From positions 1-46,275 of the forward strand of contig CAIOGM010000035.1 of NCBI GenBank assembly GCA_903857795.1: a stretch of DNA of 46,275 nt, in the 5' to 3' direction. Both the position numbers and the translations under genes were made by a program. Source of the DNA: an uncultured Geobacter sp. (GTDB taxonomy: Bacteria > Desulfobacterota > Desulfuromonadia > Geobacterales > CAIOGM01). The first letter of the stretch is position 1. Each line of letters starts with the position of its first letter. The notes beneath the pieces are model-generated. The model ran no database searches. It was not told where the DNA came from and saw only the letters and a program-made list of their open reading frames with translations. Positions 1-20,659 of the stretch are shown here, in pieces.

Positions 1-1198
1 CGACACACTGGACGAAGACCACCTGCTTCGGTTCCTTGCCGTCGGAGGGGCGGACGATCTTCCCTCCCGTGGGTCCGCTGGCCGAAGCGAGCCTCTCAAA
101 GGTGAGGCCGTCGATGACGTCGGGGATCTTGCCGTGACCGAATTCGCCATACCCCTTGATGGCCGACCCCTTGGGTTTTTCCCCAATGTCGTAGAGTTTG
201 AAGCCGGTTGCCACCACGATGGCCCCCACCTGCTCCACAACCAGCTGGTCCTGCTGTTCGTAATCCACCGCGCCGGGGCCGCAGACCTTCTGGCAGACCC
301 CGCACTTGCCGTTGATGAACTTGGTGCAGTGCTCCCGGTCGATGACCGGGGTGTTGGGGACCGCCTGGGGGAAGGGGACGTAGATGGCGGAACGGAACCC
401 CAGGTTCTTGTCGAATTCGTTGGGGATCTTCTTCTGGGGGCACTTCTCCATGCAGACCCCGCAGCCGGTACACTTGGCCATCTCCACCGAGCGGGCCCGC
501 TTCTTGATGGTAATGGTGAAGTTACCGATGAAGCCATCCACCGCCTCGATCTCCGAATAGGTGTGCAGGGTGATATTGGGGTGGTTGACCACATCCACCA
601 TCCGGGGGGTCATGATGCACTGGGAACAGTCCAGGGTGGGGAAGGTCTCCGAGAGCATGGCCATATGGCCGCCGATGGAAGGCTCCCGCTCCACCAGGAC
701 CACCCTGTGGCCGCAGTCGGCGATGTCCAGGGCGGCCTGAATCCCGGCGATGCCGCCGCCGATGACCAGGGCCCGCTTGGTGACCGGCACGGTGATGGGG
801 ATGAGCTTCTTGTTCTTCCTGACCCGCTCCACCAGCATCCGGACGATGTCGGTGGCCTTTGCTGTCGCCTCCTCCCGGTTGTCATGGACCCAGGAACAGT
901 GTTCCCGAATGTTGGCCATCTCGCAGAGAAACGGGTTCAGCCCCGCTGCCTGGGCCGCATTGCGGAAGGTCTTCTCGTGCATCCGGGGGGAGCAGGCCGC
1001 CACCACGATCCCCTCCAGCCGCTGCTCCGCAACCGCCTTCTTGAGGAGGGTCTGGCCGGGGTCGGAACACATATATTTGTAATCGCAGGCATAGGCCACG
1101 CCGACCATCCGCCGGGCGGCTTCAGCCACCTGCTCCACATCCACCGTCCGGGAGATGTTCTCCCCGCAGTGACAGATAAAGACACCTATTCGGGACAT
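1..1198 (-). CDS. hdrA: Heterodisulfide reductase subunit A-like protein (HdrA), 3' end outside window
   Basis: Flavin and iron-sulfur protein of the HdrA family, which in HdrABC complexes takes part in flavin-based electron transfer or bifurcation between ferredoxin or NADH and thiol/disulfide or quinone-linked partners in the cytoplasm. About 399 residues are in the window. The start at 1198 gives MSRIGVFICHCG, with the Cys pair typical of the HdrA N-terminal domain. A GGGIAG dinucleotide-binding loop lies near residue 147, followed by the LDCSQC motif near 188. Four-cysteine 4Fe-4S motifs lie near residues 241-252 (CTGCGVCMEKC) and 290-306. The reading frame is still open at base 1. It is the third gene of an hdrC-hdrB-hdrA set, separated from hdrB by an inverted repeat. 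The physiological partner is probably encoded beyond the window. Confidence 0.9.
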   Translation of the reverse strand, partial: MSRIGVFICHCGENISRTVDVEQVAEAARRMVGVAYACDYKYMCSDPGQTLLKKAVAEQRLEGIVVAACSPRMHEKTFRNAAQAAGLNPFLCEMANIREHCSWVHDNREEATAKATDIVRMLVERVRKNKKLIPITVPVTKRALVIGGGIAGIQAALDIADCGHRVVLVEREPSIGGHMAMLSETFPTLDCSQCIMTPRMVDVVNHPNITLHTYSEIEAVDGFIGNFTITIKKRARSVEMAKCTGCGVCMEKCPQKKIPNEFDKNLGFRSAIYVPFPQAVPNTPVIDREHCTKFINGKCGVCQKVCGPGAVDYEQQDQLVVEQVGAIVVATGFKLYDIGEKPKGSAIKGYGEFGHGKIPDVIDGLTFERLASASGPTGGKIVRPSDGKEPKQVVFVQCV

Positions 1199-13663: not shown

Positions 13664-14707
13664 ATGTCCTTCCGCACCATCCAGTGGCATGACGGCAAAG
13701 TCGTCATGATCGATCAGACCCGGCTTCCAGCCGAAGAAGTCTACAACGAATACAGTGATTACCAGGGGGTCGCCCAGGCGATTCGCGGGATGATCATCCG
13801 CGGCGCTCCCGCCATCGGCGTGGCCGCCGCTATGGGGGTGGCGCTGGGGGCGCGGGATATTATTGCAACTGATCACGACGGCTTCTTCCGGGATTTCGAG
13901 ATCATCTGCAACGTCATGGCCGGAACCCGCCCCACGGCGGTAAATCTCTTCTGGGCCATCGACCGGATGAAGCGGATGGCAGAGCTCCACAAGACTCTCC
14001 CTCTCTCCGCACTCCGCAAGATTCTCATCGACGAGGCGATCCGGGTGGAAGAGGAGGACCTGGCAATCTGCAAGGCCATCGGCAGTCACGGAGCAGCGCT
14101 GATCCCCCATGGCGCCACGGTGCTGACCCACTGCAACGCCGGAGGACTGGCCACCGCCGGTTACGGCACGGCCCTGGGGGTCATCCGGGCGGCCCATGAG
14201 GCGGGAAAAGGGATCAAGGTCTTTGCCGACGAGACCCGCCCTTGGCTCCAGGGAGCGCGGCTCACCGCCTGGGAGTTGATGAAGGACAACATCCCGGTGA
14301 CCCTCATCTCCGACAACATGGCCGGCTACTTCATGAAAAAAGGAGAGATCACCTGCTGCGTGGTGGGGGCCGACCGGATCGCCGCCAACGGTGACACCGC
14401 CAACAAGATCGGCACCTACTCCGTGGCGGTGCTGGCCAAGGAGAACGGCATCCCCTTCTACGTGGCGGCCCCGGTCTCCACCCTGGACCTGACCCTTTCC
14501 CATGGGGATCAGATCCCCATCGAGGAGCGGACCTCCCTGGAGGTGACCCATATCAAGGGGATCGCCATTGCGCCGGAAGGGGTTGCAGTAAAAAACCCAG
14601 CCTTCGACGTCACCCCGGCCCGCTACATCACCGGCATCATCACCGAGCACGGGGTGGCACAAGGGGATTATCTGAAGGAGCTGAAGGCGCTGGCGGAGAA
14701 GGGATGA
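13664..14707 (+). CDS. mtnA: S-methyl-5-thioribose-1-phosphate isomerase
   Basis: 347-residue isomerase of the methionine salvage pathway; it converts methylthioribose-1-phosphate to methylthioribulose-1-phosphate. It belongs to the eIF2B-like fold. The family active-site residues are visible: Cys157 in [12 protein letters not shown] and Asp237 in [12 protein letters not shown]; the substrate-binding [11 protein letters not shown] motif lies near the N-terminus. The start at ATG 13664 has AAGGAGA upstream. The stop codon overlaps the ATG of the type IIG restriction gene (ATGA), an odd partner for a metabolic gene. No other mtn gene is in the window. Confidence 0.93.
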
Positions 14708-17700
14708 AACTGACGATTCTCTCCCCGGCAAAAGCCCTCTCCAAGGCGTACCTGAAACAGAGCCTGAAACGGGAGCAGATTGACCTTTTCAAGAGTTCCC
14801 TGGCGCGTCTGTTCCAGCGAATCAAGGAAGGTGAATCCGAGGAGCATCTGAAAAACATCGTCGCGGATTTCCTCAAGGATGCCTGGTACAAACCCGCCCA
14901 TGAGATCAACACCAGCGGCAGAGCCGATCTGGTTATTCATAACGGCAGATCATCTTCCGATTCCGTCGGTATCATCATAGAGGTCAAACGCCCCTCCAAC
15001 ACCACCGAGATGATTTCGTCTGAGCGTCCCAACGTCAAGGCTCTCCACGAACTGCTCCATTACTACCTGCAAGAGCGCTACCTGCGGGACAACAAGGAGC
15101 TCAAACAGCTCATCATCTGCAATATTTACGAGTGGTACATCTTTGATGCCGCCGACTTCGAGCGGCTCTTTTTCGGTAACCCGAAGTTTGTCAAAAGCTA
15201 TCGCGATTGGACGGAGGGAACCCTCCCCGGCACCGGGACCGACTGGTTCTATCAGGAGCTAGCCAAGCCGTTCATCCGGGAAAAAATCGACGAGCTTACC
15301 TGCACCTGTTTCAACCTCAAGGAATACGAACCCCTTGTCCGCGCCACCGTCTCCTCCCCTCAATCAGGGAGTGACGACAGAAAACTCATAAACCTCTATA
15401 AACTCCTCTCTCCACCTCACCTTCTCAAACTCCCCTTTGCCAACGACAGTAACTCCCTCAATCGGGAGTTTTATTCGGAGCTACTGCATATCATCGGCCT
15501 GGAAGAGGTGAAGGATAAGGGAAAGAAGCTGATCCGGCGCAAGGCAATCGAGAGACGCAACGACGGATCTTTACTGGAGAACACCATCTCCGTCCTGGTC
15601 AGCCAGCGGGTACTGGAAAATCCGGAACATCTCGACCGGTTCGGCGCCGACGATGAAGAACGGCTCTTCAGCATCGGCCTGGAGCTCTGTATTACCTGGC
15701 TGGACCGGATCCTTTTTCTCAAACTCCTGGAAGGGCAGCTCATCGCCCATCATCGGGGGGACCGGAGCCGAGCATTTCTTAACAACCGGATGATCGAAGG
15801 TTTTGACGGATTGCAGGAACTGTTCTTCGAGGTTCTGGCCGTCCGTCCGGACCGGCGAAGCGCCCAGGTCAACGCACGCTACGGCGCCATTCCCTATCTT
15901 AACAGCTCTCTTTTTGAGCCCGGCGACCTGGAGCGGAAAACCGTTCATATCTCCAGCCTCAAGGAACGGAAGGAGCTGCCTCTCCATGGCGCCACGGTCC
16001 TGAAGGGGAGCAACGGCAAACGTCTCACCGGCACCAGGGGAGTTCTCCCCTATCTGTTCGAGTTTCTCGACGCCTACGATTTTGCCACCGAAGGGAATGC
16101 CGAGATCCAGGAAGAGAACAAGAGCATCATCAACGCCGCCGTGCTGGGGCTGATCTTCGAGAAGATCAACGGCTACAAGGACGGTTCCTTCTTCACCCCC
16201 GGCTTCATCACCATGTATATCTGTCGCGAGACCATTCGGCGGGGGGTGGTGGCGAAATTTCGCGGATCAGATATCCCCGATCTGGCCAAGGTGACGGATT
16301 TTGCCGACCTCAAGGACCGTCTGGATCGGACCGACCGGGATCTCCGGAAAAAGAGCAACGACATCATCAACTCCCTCCGGCTCTGCGACCCCGCCGTGGG
16401 CTCCGGTCACTTCCTGGTCTCGGCTCTCAACGAAATCATCGCCATCAAGAGCGAACTGGGGGTCCTCTGTTACCGGGACAACGGCGACCGGGTCAAGGAG
16501 TACCGGGTAACCGTTGATCAGGACGAGCTCATCGTCATCGACAAGGATGATGACAAACTGTTCGAGTACGTCCTGAACCGAAACGGACGCCCCGACGAAG
16601 AGCAGCAGCGGCTTCAAGAAACCCTTTTCCACGAAAAGCAGACCATCATCGAGCAGTGCCTCTTCGGTGTGGACATTAATCCCAAGTCCGTCTCCATCTG
16701 TCGTCTTCGGCTCTGGATTGAGCTGCTGAAAAGCGCCTACTACCGCCCCCCTCCCCAGCCCTCCCCCACTGGGTGGGAATTGGAAACCCTCCCCAATATC
16801 GACATCAACATCAAGTGCGGCAACTCACTGGTCAACCGGTTTTCTCTTCGCGACGACAAGGAGACCCTGGAGCGGTACGCACCCGCGGAACGCCAGAAGC
16901 TCAGGAATCTGACCACCCGCTACCGGGAAAAAGTCTGGGCCTACAAACTGGGGAGCGATGGTCCCAGCAACAAGGCGGTTCTCCGTCGGGAAATCCAACG
17001 GCTGAAGGAGCAATGGAGCAGCTTCTCCGATCCGGCCGACGGGTACATGCGGGAGCTGCGCCGAATTAATAATGAGCTCGCCCAGGAGATCTTCGTCTTC
17101 GACAATACCGGACTGACCCGACGTCAGGAGTTGCACCAAAAGGCCGAAGAGCTGGAACAAAAGATCGAAGAGCGGCAACGGACGGTTTACGCCAACGCCT
17201 TTGAGTGGCGCTTCGAGTTCCCCGAAGTTCTTGACGATGACGGACGATTTGTCGGTTTCGACATGGTCATCGGCAATCCCCCCTATATCCGGCATGAAGC
17301 CATCAAGGCGCAAAAAGAGATTTATGCCGAGCGGTTCGGTGACTTTTTCTGCGGCACGGCGGATCTGTACACCTATTTCTACAAGACCGGCCTGGAGATT
17401 CTGAAGCCGAAGGGCTCCCTCTGCTACATCGCCCCCAACAAATTCATGCGAACCGGTTACGGCAGGAAAACCCGCGAGCTCCTCACCACCCGTGCGACCC
17501 CGCTCCTGATTCTCGATTTCGGAGATCTTTCCATCTTCGACGAGGCAACCACCTACCCGTCCATCGTTCTGGTGGAGAACGCACCTCCCCAAACCTTCCC
17601 GACAAAAGGACGCAAAATAACCTCCTCACCCCAGCGGGAGGAGGTTGGGAGGGAAAAGATCCTCGTCGCCACCTTCACCGATCCGGAACAACTCAAGAAT

Positions 17701-18738
17701 CTGGCCGACACCGTCGCCACCGTCGGCTTCACCATGCCGGTTGCATCTCTGTCCCCCGCTGGCTGGGCTCTGGAACGGCCGGACGTGCTGGAGCTCATGG
17801 CTAAACTACGCAAGGTCGGAAAACCACTGGGAGAGTATGTTGATGGGAAATTTTACCGTGGTGTGTTGACCGGACTGAACGAGGCGTTCGTCATCAACGA
17901 GGCCACCCGGCAGCGACTCATTGTCGAAGATCCGAAATGCGCAGAGATCATCAAGCCATGGCTTCGGGGGCGGGATATTCATAAATGGAAAACGAAATGG
18001 GCGGGGCTGCACCTGATAACCATCCCCAGTAGTGGTAACCACGGCTGGCCTTGGTCGAATGCTGCACATGAGGATGCTCAGGTTCTTTTTGCTCGTACCT
18101 ACCCTTCAGTCCACCAATACTTTCTCCCTTTTGTGGAGCAAATGAAAAAGCGGGACGATAAGGGACGATTCTGGTGGGAACTACGTGCATGTTCCTACTA
18201 TGACGACTTTGAATGTGAAAAAATATCTTATCCTCATTTCTCGACGGTCCCTGTTTTTGCGCTGGACGAAGATCATCGACTCAGTAATGATAAGTCCTAT
18301 ATCATTCCAACCAGTAGCCGCTTTCTCCTCGGATTCTTAAACAGCAAAGTTACGCAATTTTTCCTTACCCAACTGAGTCCACCCGTAAGGGGTGGATTTC
18401 TTGAACTCCGGAAAATTTTTCTGGAACAGCTCCCCGTCCCACCCGCCACCGACGAACAGAAAGCAACCATCGAAAAGCTGGTTCAGAAAATCCTAGAGAC
18501 AAAAACCGTAGGGGCGAACGGCGTTCGCCCTGATTCCGGAGCAATGTCAACGGCGGGCGTATGCCATACGCCCCTACAGGAAACCGTCCGTCCCCTGAGC
18601 GAAGTCGAAGGTCGTACCCTGAGCGAAGTCGAAGGGGACATCCCCGCTCTCGAAGCCGAAATAGACCGACTTGTCTACGCCCTGTACGGCCTGACGGATG
18701 ATGAGATTGCCGTGGTGGAGGGGAAGAAATTACCTTGA
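14704..18738 (+). CDS. Type IIG restriction enzyme / adenine DNA methyltransferase (Eco57I-like)
   Basis: 1344-residue single-chain restriction-modification protein. An N-terminal PD-(D/E)xK nuclease region is suggested by D75 (GRADLVI) and E93-V-K95 (IIIEVKRP). The gamma-class adenine methyltransferase has motif [11 protein letters not shown] near 562 and motif [10 protein letters not shown] near 858. The rest (to about 1270) is probably the target-recognition domain, with [23 protein letters not shown] typical of this family. One chain would cut and methylate a specific site. The frame is interrupted by four in-frame insertions of dispersed repeats at 16746-16782, 17619-17653, 18508-18577 and 18593-18634. 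The ATG overlaps the mtnA stop. The frame is intact, so the gene may be functional. Confidence 0.88.
16746..16782 (+). repeat. In-frame repeat insertion 1 in the type IIG gene
   Basis: A CCCCCTCCCCAGCCCTCCCC-type segment, followed by a GGGTGGG complement, encodes Pro-rich residues about 682-694 (PPPQPSPTG). It resembles the dispersed C-rich/G-rich palindromic repeats that also supply 17619-17653, and it breaks the sequence style of the enzyme between the methyltransferase motifs. Confidence 0.5.
17619..17653 (+). repeat. In-frame repeat insertion 2 in the type IIG gene
   Basis: Nine-base arms AACCTCCTC (17619-17627) and GAGGAGGTT (17638-17646) form a perfect inverted repeat with a 10-base loop, followed by GGGAGGG. 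It is translated as [11 protein letters not shown] near residues 973-983, between the NPPY motif and the presumed target-recognition region. Confidence 0.6.
18508..18577 (+). repeat. In-frame repeat insertion 3: compound GTAGGGGCG palindrome
   Basis: The outer arms GTAGGGGCG (18508-18516) and CGCCCCTAC (18569-18577) are inverted. Inside are two smaller perfect palindromes, GGGCGAAC-GGC-GTTCGCCC (18512-18530) and GGGCGTAT-GCC-ATACGCCC (18555-18573). The family is the same as the palindrome at 11497-11524. The 70 bases are read through in frame as part of the C-terminal tail of the restriction enzyme. Confidence 0.75.
18593..18634 (+). repeat. In-frame repeat insertion 4: tandem CCCTGAGCGAAGTCGAAG
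   Basis: The 18-mer CCCTGAGCGAAGTCGAAG occurs at 18593-18610 and again at 18617-18634. The period is 24 bases, so the protein gains the 8-residue repeats R-P-L-S-E-V-E-G and R-T-L-S-E-V-E-G. From memory this CTGAGCGAAGTCGAAG motif is a widespread intergenic repeat in bacteria. Confidence 0.75.
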
Positions 18739-18806: not shown

Positions 18807-18883
18807 TTGCTTAACCGGGAAACGGAAAAAAACGATAAGCATATGATATGTGTCGGTATTCTTGCTTAACTGGGAAACGGAAA
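18807..18883 (+). repeat. Left R-spacer-R module (two 22-bp repeats, 33-bp spacer)
   Basis: The 22-bp repeat TTGCTTAACTGGGAAACGG plus AAA occurs at 18807-18828 (one T to C change) and 18862-18883, a 55-bp period with a 33-base spacer. The last A of the second copy is the A of the ATG of the AlbA_2 gene. The identical arrangement, 55-bp period included, lies on the other side of that gene. See the findings. Confidence 0.9.
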
Positions 18884-20346
18884 TGATCAAGAACTGGATA
18901 CGGAAAGCTCTCGATTTTCTTGACCACAGCCTCAATCCTGTTCCCCAGGAACTGAATGAACTGGATTGGAAGGAAGACCTTTCGCCGGATAACGGCAAGC
19001 TCTGCCGACATCTCTCCGCGTTTGCCAATCAGCCGGGTGGCGGCTTCATGGTCTTCGGCATCGAAGATAAGTCAACCCGCTTTGTCGGCGTAACGCGGCA
19101 GTCGGCTGAAACCATTGTGCAGCGATTGGGCAGTCTCTGCCGGGATGCCTTGAATCCGGTGGTCACCATCGATCATGCCATTGAAGAGTATCAGGGCACC
19201 CCTTTGTTGTTTGTTCATGTCCGGGAGAGCGCGGTAAAGCCAGTCCATCTTGCCTCCGGAACCATGGAAGACGCCTACATCCGCAGCGGTGGAACCACCA
19301 GGAAAGCGTCACGACAGGAGATCGGTGGGTTGATGCTGAACAGTAAGACCCCACAATTTGAAGAGTTGCATGCCTCCACACTCAAATCGGCGCCGGATAT
19401 CGTGGATATTCTCGATTTTCGAAGTATCTACAAGTTGTTGGGAAAACCGGTGCCGCAATCTACAGATGAAGTGCTGCAGTGGATGAAAGACGAGAAGATG
19501 ATTGAGGAGGTTGATGGGGCAGGTTACTACATCACCAACTTCGGCGCCCTGGCGGCGGCGCAGAATTTAAAGGATTTCGACGGACTGGCGCGCAAGAGCA
19601 TCAGGCTCATCAAGTACAAAGGTGTCAACAAGCTGGAAGCTGAAAAGGAGTTTCCCGGCTCAAAGGGGTATGCCATCGGTTTTGAGGGTCTTATTGCGTT
19701 CATCACGGCTATGTTGCCGAGCAGCGAGATCATAAAGAACGCCTTGCGGACTGAAACCTCGGTCTATCCGGAGATCGCCATCAGAGAGCTGGTGGCTAAC
19801 GCGCTAATTCATCAGGATTTCAGTATTCGTGGCTCCGGCCCGATGATTGAAATATTTACCGACCGGATTGAAATCTCGAACCCCGGCAAACTGCTTCCTT
19901 CCAAGAAAATTGACCGTTTGATCCGGACTACTCCCGAATCGAGGAACGAGATACTGGCTGCCGCATTCCGCCGCTACAATATTTGCGAGGAACGTGGTTC
20001 AGGGTTTGAAAAAGCCGTCGCAGCCATAGAATTTTTTGGTTTGCCCCCCTTGAAATTCGAGGAGTTGGAAAACTCCTTCCGGGTGACGATGTACAGTCCA
20101 AAGTCCTTTGCGGATCTGACACCGATGGAGCGTGTTGAAGCGTGTTACCAGCACAGCATCATTAAATATTACTCCAGCGACGGCATGACCAATACCAGTC
20201 TCAGGGAGCGTTTCAAAATGCATGAGAAGCAGCGTCCACAGGTCTCCCTGGTCATCAAGGAAGCGTTGGCGCAGGGAAAGGTAAAACCAAAAGACCCGAA
20301 TAATGTATCGACGAAATATGTTGTATACATACCGGCTTGGGGGTAG
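18883..20346 (+). CDS. AlbA_2/Schlafen-type ATP-binding protein (RecG-like C-terminal ATPase fold)
   Basis: 487-residue protein with an N-terminal AlbA_2 (Schlafen-like) domain: ELNELDWKEDLSPDNGKLCRHLSAFANQPGGGFMVFGIED and the DAYIRSGGTTRKASRQEI segment are typical. A C-terminal HATPase_c_4-like region follows, with YPEIAIRELVANALIHQDFS, IEIFTDRIEISNPGKL and NEILAAAFRR...CEERGSGFEKA. Such proteins occur as regulators or as parts of defence islands; no biochemical role can be fixed. The ATG at 18883 is fused to a 22-bp repeat; a GTG at 18850 in the same frame would read through the repeat. It sits between a restriction enzyme gene and a nuclease remnant, which favours a defence or mobile role. 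Base composition is lower in GC than its neighbours. Confidence 0.8.
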   Translation: MIKNWIRKALDFLDHSLNPVPQELNELDWKEDLSPDNGKLCRHLSAFANQPGGGFMVFGIEDKSTRFVGVTRQSAETIVQRLGSLCRDALNPVVTIDHAIEEYQGTPLLFVHVRESAVKPVHLASGTMEDAYIRSGGTTRKASRQEIGGLMLNSKTPQFEELHASTLKSAPDIVDILDFRSIYKLLGKPVPQSTDEVLQWMKDEKMIEEVDGAGYYITNFGALAAAQNLKDFDGLARKSIRLIKYKGVNKLEAEKEFPGSKGYAIGFEGLIAFITAMLPSSEIIKNALRTETSVYPEIAIRELVANALIHQDFSIRGSGPMIEIFTDRIEISNPGKLLPSKKIDRLIRTTPESRNEILAAAFRRYNICEERGSGFEKAVAAIEFFGLPPLKFEELENSFRVTMYSPKSFADLTPMERVEACYQHSIIKYYSSDGMTNTSLRERFKMHEKQRPQVSLVIKEALAQGKVKPKDPNNVSTKYVVYIPAWG

Positions 20347-20350
20347 GTTT

Positions 20351-20427
20351 TTGCTTAACTGGGAAACGGAAAAAAATGGTAACATACTGAAATGAAGTGG
20401 CATGTTTGCTTAACTGGGAAACGGAAA
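20351..20427 (+). repeat. Right R-spacer-R module (two 22-bp repeats, 33-bp spacer)
   Basis: Identical 22-bp repeats at 20351-20372 and 20406-20427, again 55 bp apart with a 33-base spacer. Its spacer matches that of the left module at 18 of 33 positions, so the modules look related as wholes rather than carrying unrelated spacers. It begins five bases after the AlbA_2 stop codon. Confidence 0.9.
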
Positions 20428-20467: not shown

Positions 20468-20659
20468 GTGAAGAAAAAAGCCGACCACGGAAGTCAGAAA
20501 GAGCTTTTTCGCCCGAAAGAGGATAATGGGCTTGCGCCACTGGTGACCGAGCTTCGCGGACTCATCCACTCCGCTCGCCACGCCGTTGCCACCAAGGTCA
20601 ATACCCTGCAAGTGTTGACTAGCAGGCCAGCGCCATACATTCAACATAAGAATACATGA
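20468..20659 (+). pseudogene. 5' remnant of a YhcG/DUF1016 PDDEXK nuclease gene
   Basis: 63-residue frame from a GTG at 20468 with AGGA upstream. The segment LVTELRGLIHSARHAVATKVNTLQVLT matches the start of the DUF1016 N-terminal domain, where an intact protein continues with W-x-I-G-R. Here the homology stops at residue about 50 and is followed by an unrelated SRPAPYIQHKNT and a stop. The C-terminal nuclease domain is absent. It lies right after the second repeat module and before glnE, so the deletion joined it to the housekeeping region. Confidence 0.7.

Follow-up and report, generated by a model that had tools for sequence, protein, structure and literature searches.

Paired direct-repeat modules beside Schlafen-type genes: a probable control site travelling with its gene

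In the window, i.e. the whole stretch of 46,275 nucleotides from an uncultured Geobacter sp. analyzed here, an AlbA_2/Schlafen-type gene (P0001) is bracketed by two modules, each composed of two direct copies of a 22-bp repeat R (R1 and R2) around a 33-bp spacer. As clade-specific versions of this module lie beside most relatives of the gene, in bacteria as well as in phages, the module is probably a matched control site that travels together with a Schlafen-like phage-defence gene. The features of the window are as follows (coordinates, strand, description).

14704..18738, +, type IIG restriction-modification (RM) gene (context)
18807..18828, +, R1 of the 5' module, TTGCTTAACCGGGAAACGGAAA, differing from the other copies at one position
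18829..18861, +, spacer of the 5' module, 33 bp, 18 of 33 positions identical to the 3' spacer
18836..18848, -, IHF-consensus-like site TATCATATGCTTA in the 5' spacer, one mismatch to WATCAANNNNTTR
18862..18883, +, R2 of the 5' module, overlapping the probable ribosome-binding region and the first base of the ATG
18883..20346, +, P0001, 487 aa, predicted AlbA_2 (Schlafen), HATPase_c_4 (GHKL) and C-terminal winged helix (Pfam, AlphaFold2, PDB fold matches)
20113..20343, +, predicted C-terminal winged-helix domain, residues 411-487, proposed binder of R (AlphaFold2 and PDB fold match)
20351..20372, +, R1 of the 3' module, 4 nt past the stop codon
20373..20405, +, spacer of the 3' module, 33 bp
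20380-20392, -, weak IHF-like site in the 3' spacer, two mismatches
20406..20427, +, R2 of the 3' module
20468..20659, +, truncated DUF1016/YhcG nuclease remnant (context)

The duplicated module and its gene

The initial annotation had described the 22-mer as occurring exactly four times. Four copies are indeed found at 18807, 18862, 20351 and 20406, but only three are exact, as the copy at 18807 carries a C in place of a T. Recomputation gave the same values for the 55-bp period, the 33-bp spacers, the common orientation on the + strand and the 18 of 33 matching spacer positions, and the ATG of the gene does overlap the last repeat base at position 18883. The supposed duplication of the whole 77-bp module is borne out by an identity of 79% over 80 nt between both modules, and the gene fills the space between them, starting at the last base of R2 and ending 4 nt before the next R1. 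While R is identical at 43 of 44 positions between the two modules, the spacers agree at only 18 of 33, which identifies R as the conserved part. The 22-mer did not occur in dinucleotide shuffles of the window, and no further copy was found in the whole 4.05-Mb genome with up to three mismatches allowed; it is confined to one locus and hence no common dispersed repeat. Searches revealed no inverted repeat within the module or within R, no fold signal of the module on either strand (z -0.60 to 0.33), no Rfam match in the module region, no sigma-70 promoter match in the module/gene region and no terminator between module and gene. With the window modules as DNA queries, plasmids gave no match and phages a single one that was short and weak.

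The assignment of the gene as AlbA_2/Schlafen-type was confirmed by Pfam, with 61.5 bits for SLFN_AlbA_2 (PF04326) against a gathering cut-off of 25.3, and HATPase_c_4 scored 89.7 bits. An AlphaFold model based on three sequences only was unusable (pLDDT 32), whereas an alignment of 22 sequences yielded an AlphaFold2 model with a mean pLDDT of 87 and about 80-95 in the winged helix. This model matches the folds of SLFN11/13/14, of the SAMD9 tRNase domain and of the structural-genomics protein 3lmm, while residues 235-407 match histidine-kinase catalytic domains and the winged helix (residues 411-487) superimposes on 3cuq_B (Z 9.0, rmsd 2.4, 66 residues). The profile of the latter domain also gave a weak match to the repressor AdcR (E 0.034). 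Among homologues, E23 (98%) and K30 (100%) are conserved, position 28 is E or D in most sequences, and E302 and N306 of the GHKL N-box are invariant. On the basis of sequence and model, P0001 is thus predicted to be a COG2865-type protein combining AlbA_2, GHKL and winged-helix-turn-helix domains, and it would presumably act as an RNase. The RM-linked ORFs called mloB/rlo, a name also seen in one plasmid annotation, are presumably the same kind of protein as COG2865. The AlbA_2-GHKL region additionally shows a weak match to PADLOC prokaryotic Argonaute models, probably due to fusion proteins included in those models.

The gene had been placed between a restriction gene and a nuclease remnant. 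These are the type IIG RM gene on the left and, on the right, the N-terminus of a DUF1016/YhcG PD-(D/E)XK nuclease that is intact in genome G003; beyond this remnant, glnE follows. In G003 and a second genome of the same genus, G001, the RM gene, the DUF1016 gene or its remnant and glnE are syntenic with the window, and a single module without any Schlafen-type gene lies between RM and DUF1016. This lone module resembles the 3' module of the window, and the alignment of the flanks extends to its edges. Either loss of the gene by recombination between two modules or insertion of the gene at a pre-existing module would yield such a locus.

The paired pattern was also sought in 84,980 species genomes, its core motifs being permitted a distance of 40-52 nt. 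It was found at seven places, every one of them at a period of 55 bp, and was without match in viral contigs. In G056, L043 and L045, the 5' arrangement of the gene is exactly that of the window, its ATG being overlapped by R2, and a decaying R1 is found 3' of the stop at the position occupied in the window. A Bacteroidia genome (L044) retains the module with about 27 codons of a truncated gene start, and lone modules are present in G001, G003 and G096; L090 and L154 were found through a protein search. The gene-plus-module unit hence occurs in several contexts: beside the type IIG RM gene (window), within a truncated mod gene (G056), beside a truncated mod (L045), downstream of a sterol desaturase gene (L043, L154, L090) and, for the L044 relic, downstream of hsdS/DUF262-type genes, the L044 neighbours having been called by eye. 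A 59%-identical homologue within a type I RM operon (L155) carries a 3' module only, with a period of 54 and located before hsdR, and the 5' module of the window's clade may therefore be an addition. Two further observations concern individual loci. In L043 (1-560 and about 2250-2900), the 5' part of the sterol-desaturase-like gene and its upstream region are apparently duplicated, flanking the Schlafen cassette. In L038 (G096:C60, 2523-9240), a class A module standing alone is flanked on one side by the 3' end of a convergent rlmN and on the other by a defence-like cluster, which encodes a 1435-aa protein that matches nothing in Pfam, a distant AlbA_2/HATPase protein and a weakly DprA-like protein.

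The module across the protein family

Homologues at 31-71% identity carry the same kind of pair with another repeat sequence, such as TTTARACGCAAA, TTGCTTGAYNGTTGYTTGAY, TTGATYNGGTTTTGAT, TTGATGGGTAATTGAT, TTATTTGAYGGTTATTTGAY, ATGTGACYGG and others, and R is frequently itself a tandem of two 11-bp units. In 40 of 57 homologues compared to 1 of 125 control genes, the stop codon is followed at 0-19 nt by the start of a direct-repeat pair, counts which are not independent and are inflated by kinship among the homologues. The homologues considered had at least 31% identity and an aligned C-terminus, R1 was required within the first 40 nt after the stop with p<=0.01 against shuffles, and the controls were ends of generic other long ORFs. 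Eight distant or truncated homologues have no such pair after the stop. An absence of the module around homologues, which the initial annotation had named as an argument against itself, was therefore not what was found.

The start-to-start periods cluster at 54-55, 65-67, 77-78, 87-90, 97-100 and 107-111, i.e. near the multiples of 11 bp (55, 66, 77, 88, 99, 110). The best-fitting period is 11.0 bp (periodicity R=0.816, phase 0.07, n=40), and the 11-bp periodicity on 37 distinct class/period combinations reaches R=0.83 against a null maximum of 0.56. As periods jump by about 11 within a single repeat class, the grid is not merely inherited. Repeat polarity matches that of the gene by 94:2. R1 follows the stop codon at a distance of 0-19 nt (median 4), while the next gene can be 96-931 bp away or convergent, which assigns the module to the Schlafen-type gene. 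Over all 3' modules, these distances tend to be 0-5 or 10-15 nt, which would suit a stop codon that is itself placed near the 11-bp grid.

Repeat class follows protein clade with a nearest-neighbour agreement of 0.81-0.84 versus 0.10, in a survey in which classes were assigned by hand, start codons were taken from the alignment and many genomes are metagenome assemblies. All protein domains predict the repeat class equally, so that the winged helix is not singled out as binder. A degenerate class C/E pair pattern gave three matches in 141 genomes, two of them exactly at the stop codon of a homologue; a scan with the class B pattern, which was too strict, gave none.

In viral contigs, P0001 alone as query retrieved no locus and a diverse alignment 23 loci. 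Among 21 distinct homologues from these contigs, eight pass the strict 3' test with periods of 67, 76, 87, 98, 99, 108, 109 and 109, including one weak match (L151) that may be due to chance, and several of the non-passing ones carry a 5' or half-decayed module instead. A 5' module with a period of 54-55 is found in viral contigs L141 and L150 as well as, counted by eye, in the streptococcal satellite phage Javan328. In the 5' modules of the window clade and of Firmicutes/satellite contigs, which have a period of 54-55, R2 abuts the start codon. The module is likewise retained by stand-alone copies, whether on plasmids, in phages or in a P4-like satellite of E. coli. Only 4 of 5,426 E. coli genomes gave a match, a number insufficient for comparing alleles; in these four chromosomes (L118/L119), homologue and module reside in the P4-like satellite at selC next to a retron St85-type system, with about 930 bp 3' of the gene being unannotated.

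The spacers share a further element. The IHF consensus WATCAANNNNTTR was found within one mismatch in 25 of 48 spacers compared to 5.4±2.0 in dinucleotide shuffles, and in a wider set, 29 of 61 spacers contain an IHF-like site versus at most 18 for 400 column-permuted consensi; in control windows after other ORFs, the count was 12 of 191. These sites occur in either orientation, which fits a bend in DNA and not an RNA motif. Judged by sequence, paired repeats with an IHF consensus between them have the layout of an IHF-bent operator or attachment site. Several genes of the HU/IHF family are encoded in the host genome.

Tandem arrangements of modules also exist. In L054 (G133:C21), a class D module at stop+4..102 precedes a second module, complete, lone and of class B, at stop+183..250 just before hsdR, as if a gene-plus-module had replaced another one whose site stayed behind; tandem modules were also seen in L051, L105, L106 and L100. 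At about position 1500 of the reversed locus L128 (G057:C23), a class C module stands alone, without Schlafen-type gene; it contains an IHF-like core and is flanked, as named by eye, by an AAA-ATPase/PIN-like putative defence pair and a cobalamin-biosynthesis-like gene.

A looped control site and its alternatives

The reading that we prefer, at a probability of roughly 0.5, is that the module is a nucleoprotein site bound by the winged helix of its own Schlafen-type protein, that the resulting loop silences the gene, and that the whole unit moves together. Paired sites, a bend, fixed spacing and an adjacent winged-helix protein suggest such a nucleoprotein loop. R1 and R2 would be two binding sites, each two 11-bp units long, held a whole number of such units apart by a stretch containing an IHF/HU-type bend. 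The C-terminal winged helix of the adjacent Schlafen-type protein would recognize the module, a step to which co-travel and clade-matched repeats lend support; the bend would bring R1 and R2 together, and protein on both would close a loop that silences the gene of a potentially suicidal RNase. In the window's clade, silencing would act directly at the gene start with R2 over the ribosome-binding region and the ATG, so that the 5' modules are most naturally read as repressing the gene that they precede. In most relatives, the loop would form at the 3' end, which in RM operons means between the gene and the next restriction gene (hsdR/hsdS). Gene and site would move as one unit, and loss of the gene would leave a lone module. 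We infer all of these activities, i.e. binding by a P0001-type protein, IHF binding, loop formation, repression and RNase action.

The initial annotation had offered three possible meanings. Operators at both gene ends fit best in view of the clade-tracking repeats, the 11-bp grid and the IHF-like sites between them, although a simple operator for the next gene as the only role can be discarded, as the distance is fixed to the stop codon instead; in several homologues, such as E. coli L118 and phage Musica (L112), no obvious gene to be controlled lies 3' of the module, and a simple operator is not evident there. The gene cassette is partially supported by the several unrelated contexts of the unit and by the one-module, gene-less locus in two relatives. 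The guide-like RNA, in contrast, finds no backing, given the lack of a fold signal and of an Rfam match and the relatedness of the spacers to each other.

The cassette idea can be extended to an attachment-like recombination site, with module and gene forming a mobile cassette inserted at, or excised between, direct modules so that a lone one stays behind. We consider this unlikely, even if it is in line with the syntenic one-module loci of G001 and G003, the spread of the window's clade over several contexts including the Bacteroidia relic L044, the tandem heterologous modules (L054; L051, L105, L106, L100) and an R-bend-R layout resembling recombinase sites. However, the unit is not accompanied by any recombinase or transposase, in most homologues only one side of the gene carries a module, and neither inverted repeats nor a palindromic fold are present. 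Moreover, the 18/33 agreement of 5' and 3' spacers is unlike what would be expected right after transposition, and ordinary homologous recombination between two modules equally explains the empty site.

It is rather improbable that the modules control neighbouring restriction genes via another, unlinked regulator with the Schlafen gene as a passenger. Such a role would account for modules filling the gap to hsdR or hsdS in type I RM operons (L115, L122, L125, L155) and for lone modules beside defence genes (G001, G003, G096, L128), yet the conserved distance is that to the Schlafen stop codon and not to the next gene, and repeat class follows protein clade. Both the distance kept to the stop and the stand-alone plasmid, phage and satellite copies that keep their module argue that the site serves the Schlafen-type gene first.

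Slightly lower still we rate an RNA element acting on a toxic RNase, be it a structured or protein-bound UTR, a type III-like RNA antitoxin or a guide. The polarity fixed with the gene, R2 over the start codon in 5' modules, the RNA-handling nature of AlbA_2 domains and the fact that 11 is also the pitch of A-form RNA would suit it, but the module gave neither a fold signal on either strand nor an Rfam match, and its IHF-like DNA sites occur in either orientation. Just as doubtful is a reading in which the module is an off-switch of the protein itself as well as of its gene: the Schlafen RNase would be inactive while winged helices bridge R1-IHF-R2, a private DNA 'antitoxin' for each clade, and infection would release it through DNA breakdown, loss of IHF/HU or competing phage DNA. 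Chance or generic repeats are extremely improbable despite the frequency of short two-copy repeats in DNA, with none expected in shuffles, the 40/57 versus 1/125 contrast and two of the three class C/E matches in 141 genomes falling exactly at a homologue stop.

Several known element types were considered for the module and rejected. Scanning next to the modules showed RM, Schlafen-type, DUF1016 and glnE genes, and the relatedness of the two spacers (18/33) with their conserved IHF-like core speaks against a CRISPR array. An integron cassette with attC does not apply, as the module has no inverted repeat and a fold z near 0. Ends of a transposon/IS or MITE are inconsistent with direct repeats only, a single genomic locus and P0001 as the sole gene between the modules. 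A type III toxin-antitoxin system (ToxIN-like) was dismissed because the repeats are 3' in most homologues, no terminator lies between module and gene and Rfam gave no match, and RptR/C-protein operators because R contains no inverted repeat and the protein has 487 aa.

Related systems and meaning

Loop-forming sites with a bend protein between them are known from the gal repressor with HU and from the phage Mu operator with IHF. The proposed arrangement is alike in that two operators around an IHF/HU bend would be bridged by bound protein, but the proteins differ, and the sites described here lie at gene ends and co-travel with a nuclease gene. An integron gene cassette consists of a gene plus attC after its stop codon. 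As in this cassette, a single gene is followed by a cis site right after the stop, and lone as well as tandem sites exist; in contrast, there are direct repeats only, without an inverted-repeat attC structure and without integrase.

The Schlafen-type protein family itself is already known in defence loci. Schlafen RNases with a minimal histidine kinase and wHTH have been surveyed in BREX and related loci of at least 1,017 taxa (2026 survey, PMC12839542), and the survey refers to a preprint of 2025 in which bacterial Schlafens are treated as proteins against phages. P0001 shares with these proteins the domain order (AlbA_2, GHKL, C-terminal winged helix) and the defence-locus context; a text search of PMC12839542 found no report of a flanking repeat module, operator, 11-bp grid or IHF-like site. 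Direct repeats are also used by RptR (PMC12255303), a repressor whose TAGCTA repeats lie in the promoter of a type I RM system and likewise serve as operators controlling a defence island that contains this system. RptR is, however, a 9-kDa protein whose site is a 6-bp palindrome within 9-bp repeats at one promoter, whereas the modules described here are non-palindromic 22-mers in pairs 54-111 bp apart and frequently located 3' of the gene. The open-access literature searched contained no description of such a cis-module.

Schlafen-type RNases occur widely in defence loci of bacteria. A matched, clade-specific DNA site beside the gene offers a direct handle on how the host escapes harm from them, since binding partner, site and architecture, with two sites and a bend on an 11-bp grid, can be predicted from it. 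The module further provides a sequence signature for finding and classifying Schlafen-type genes, including relics that stay behind after gene loss.
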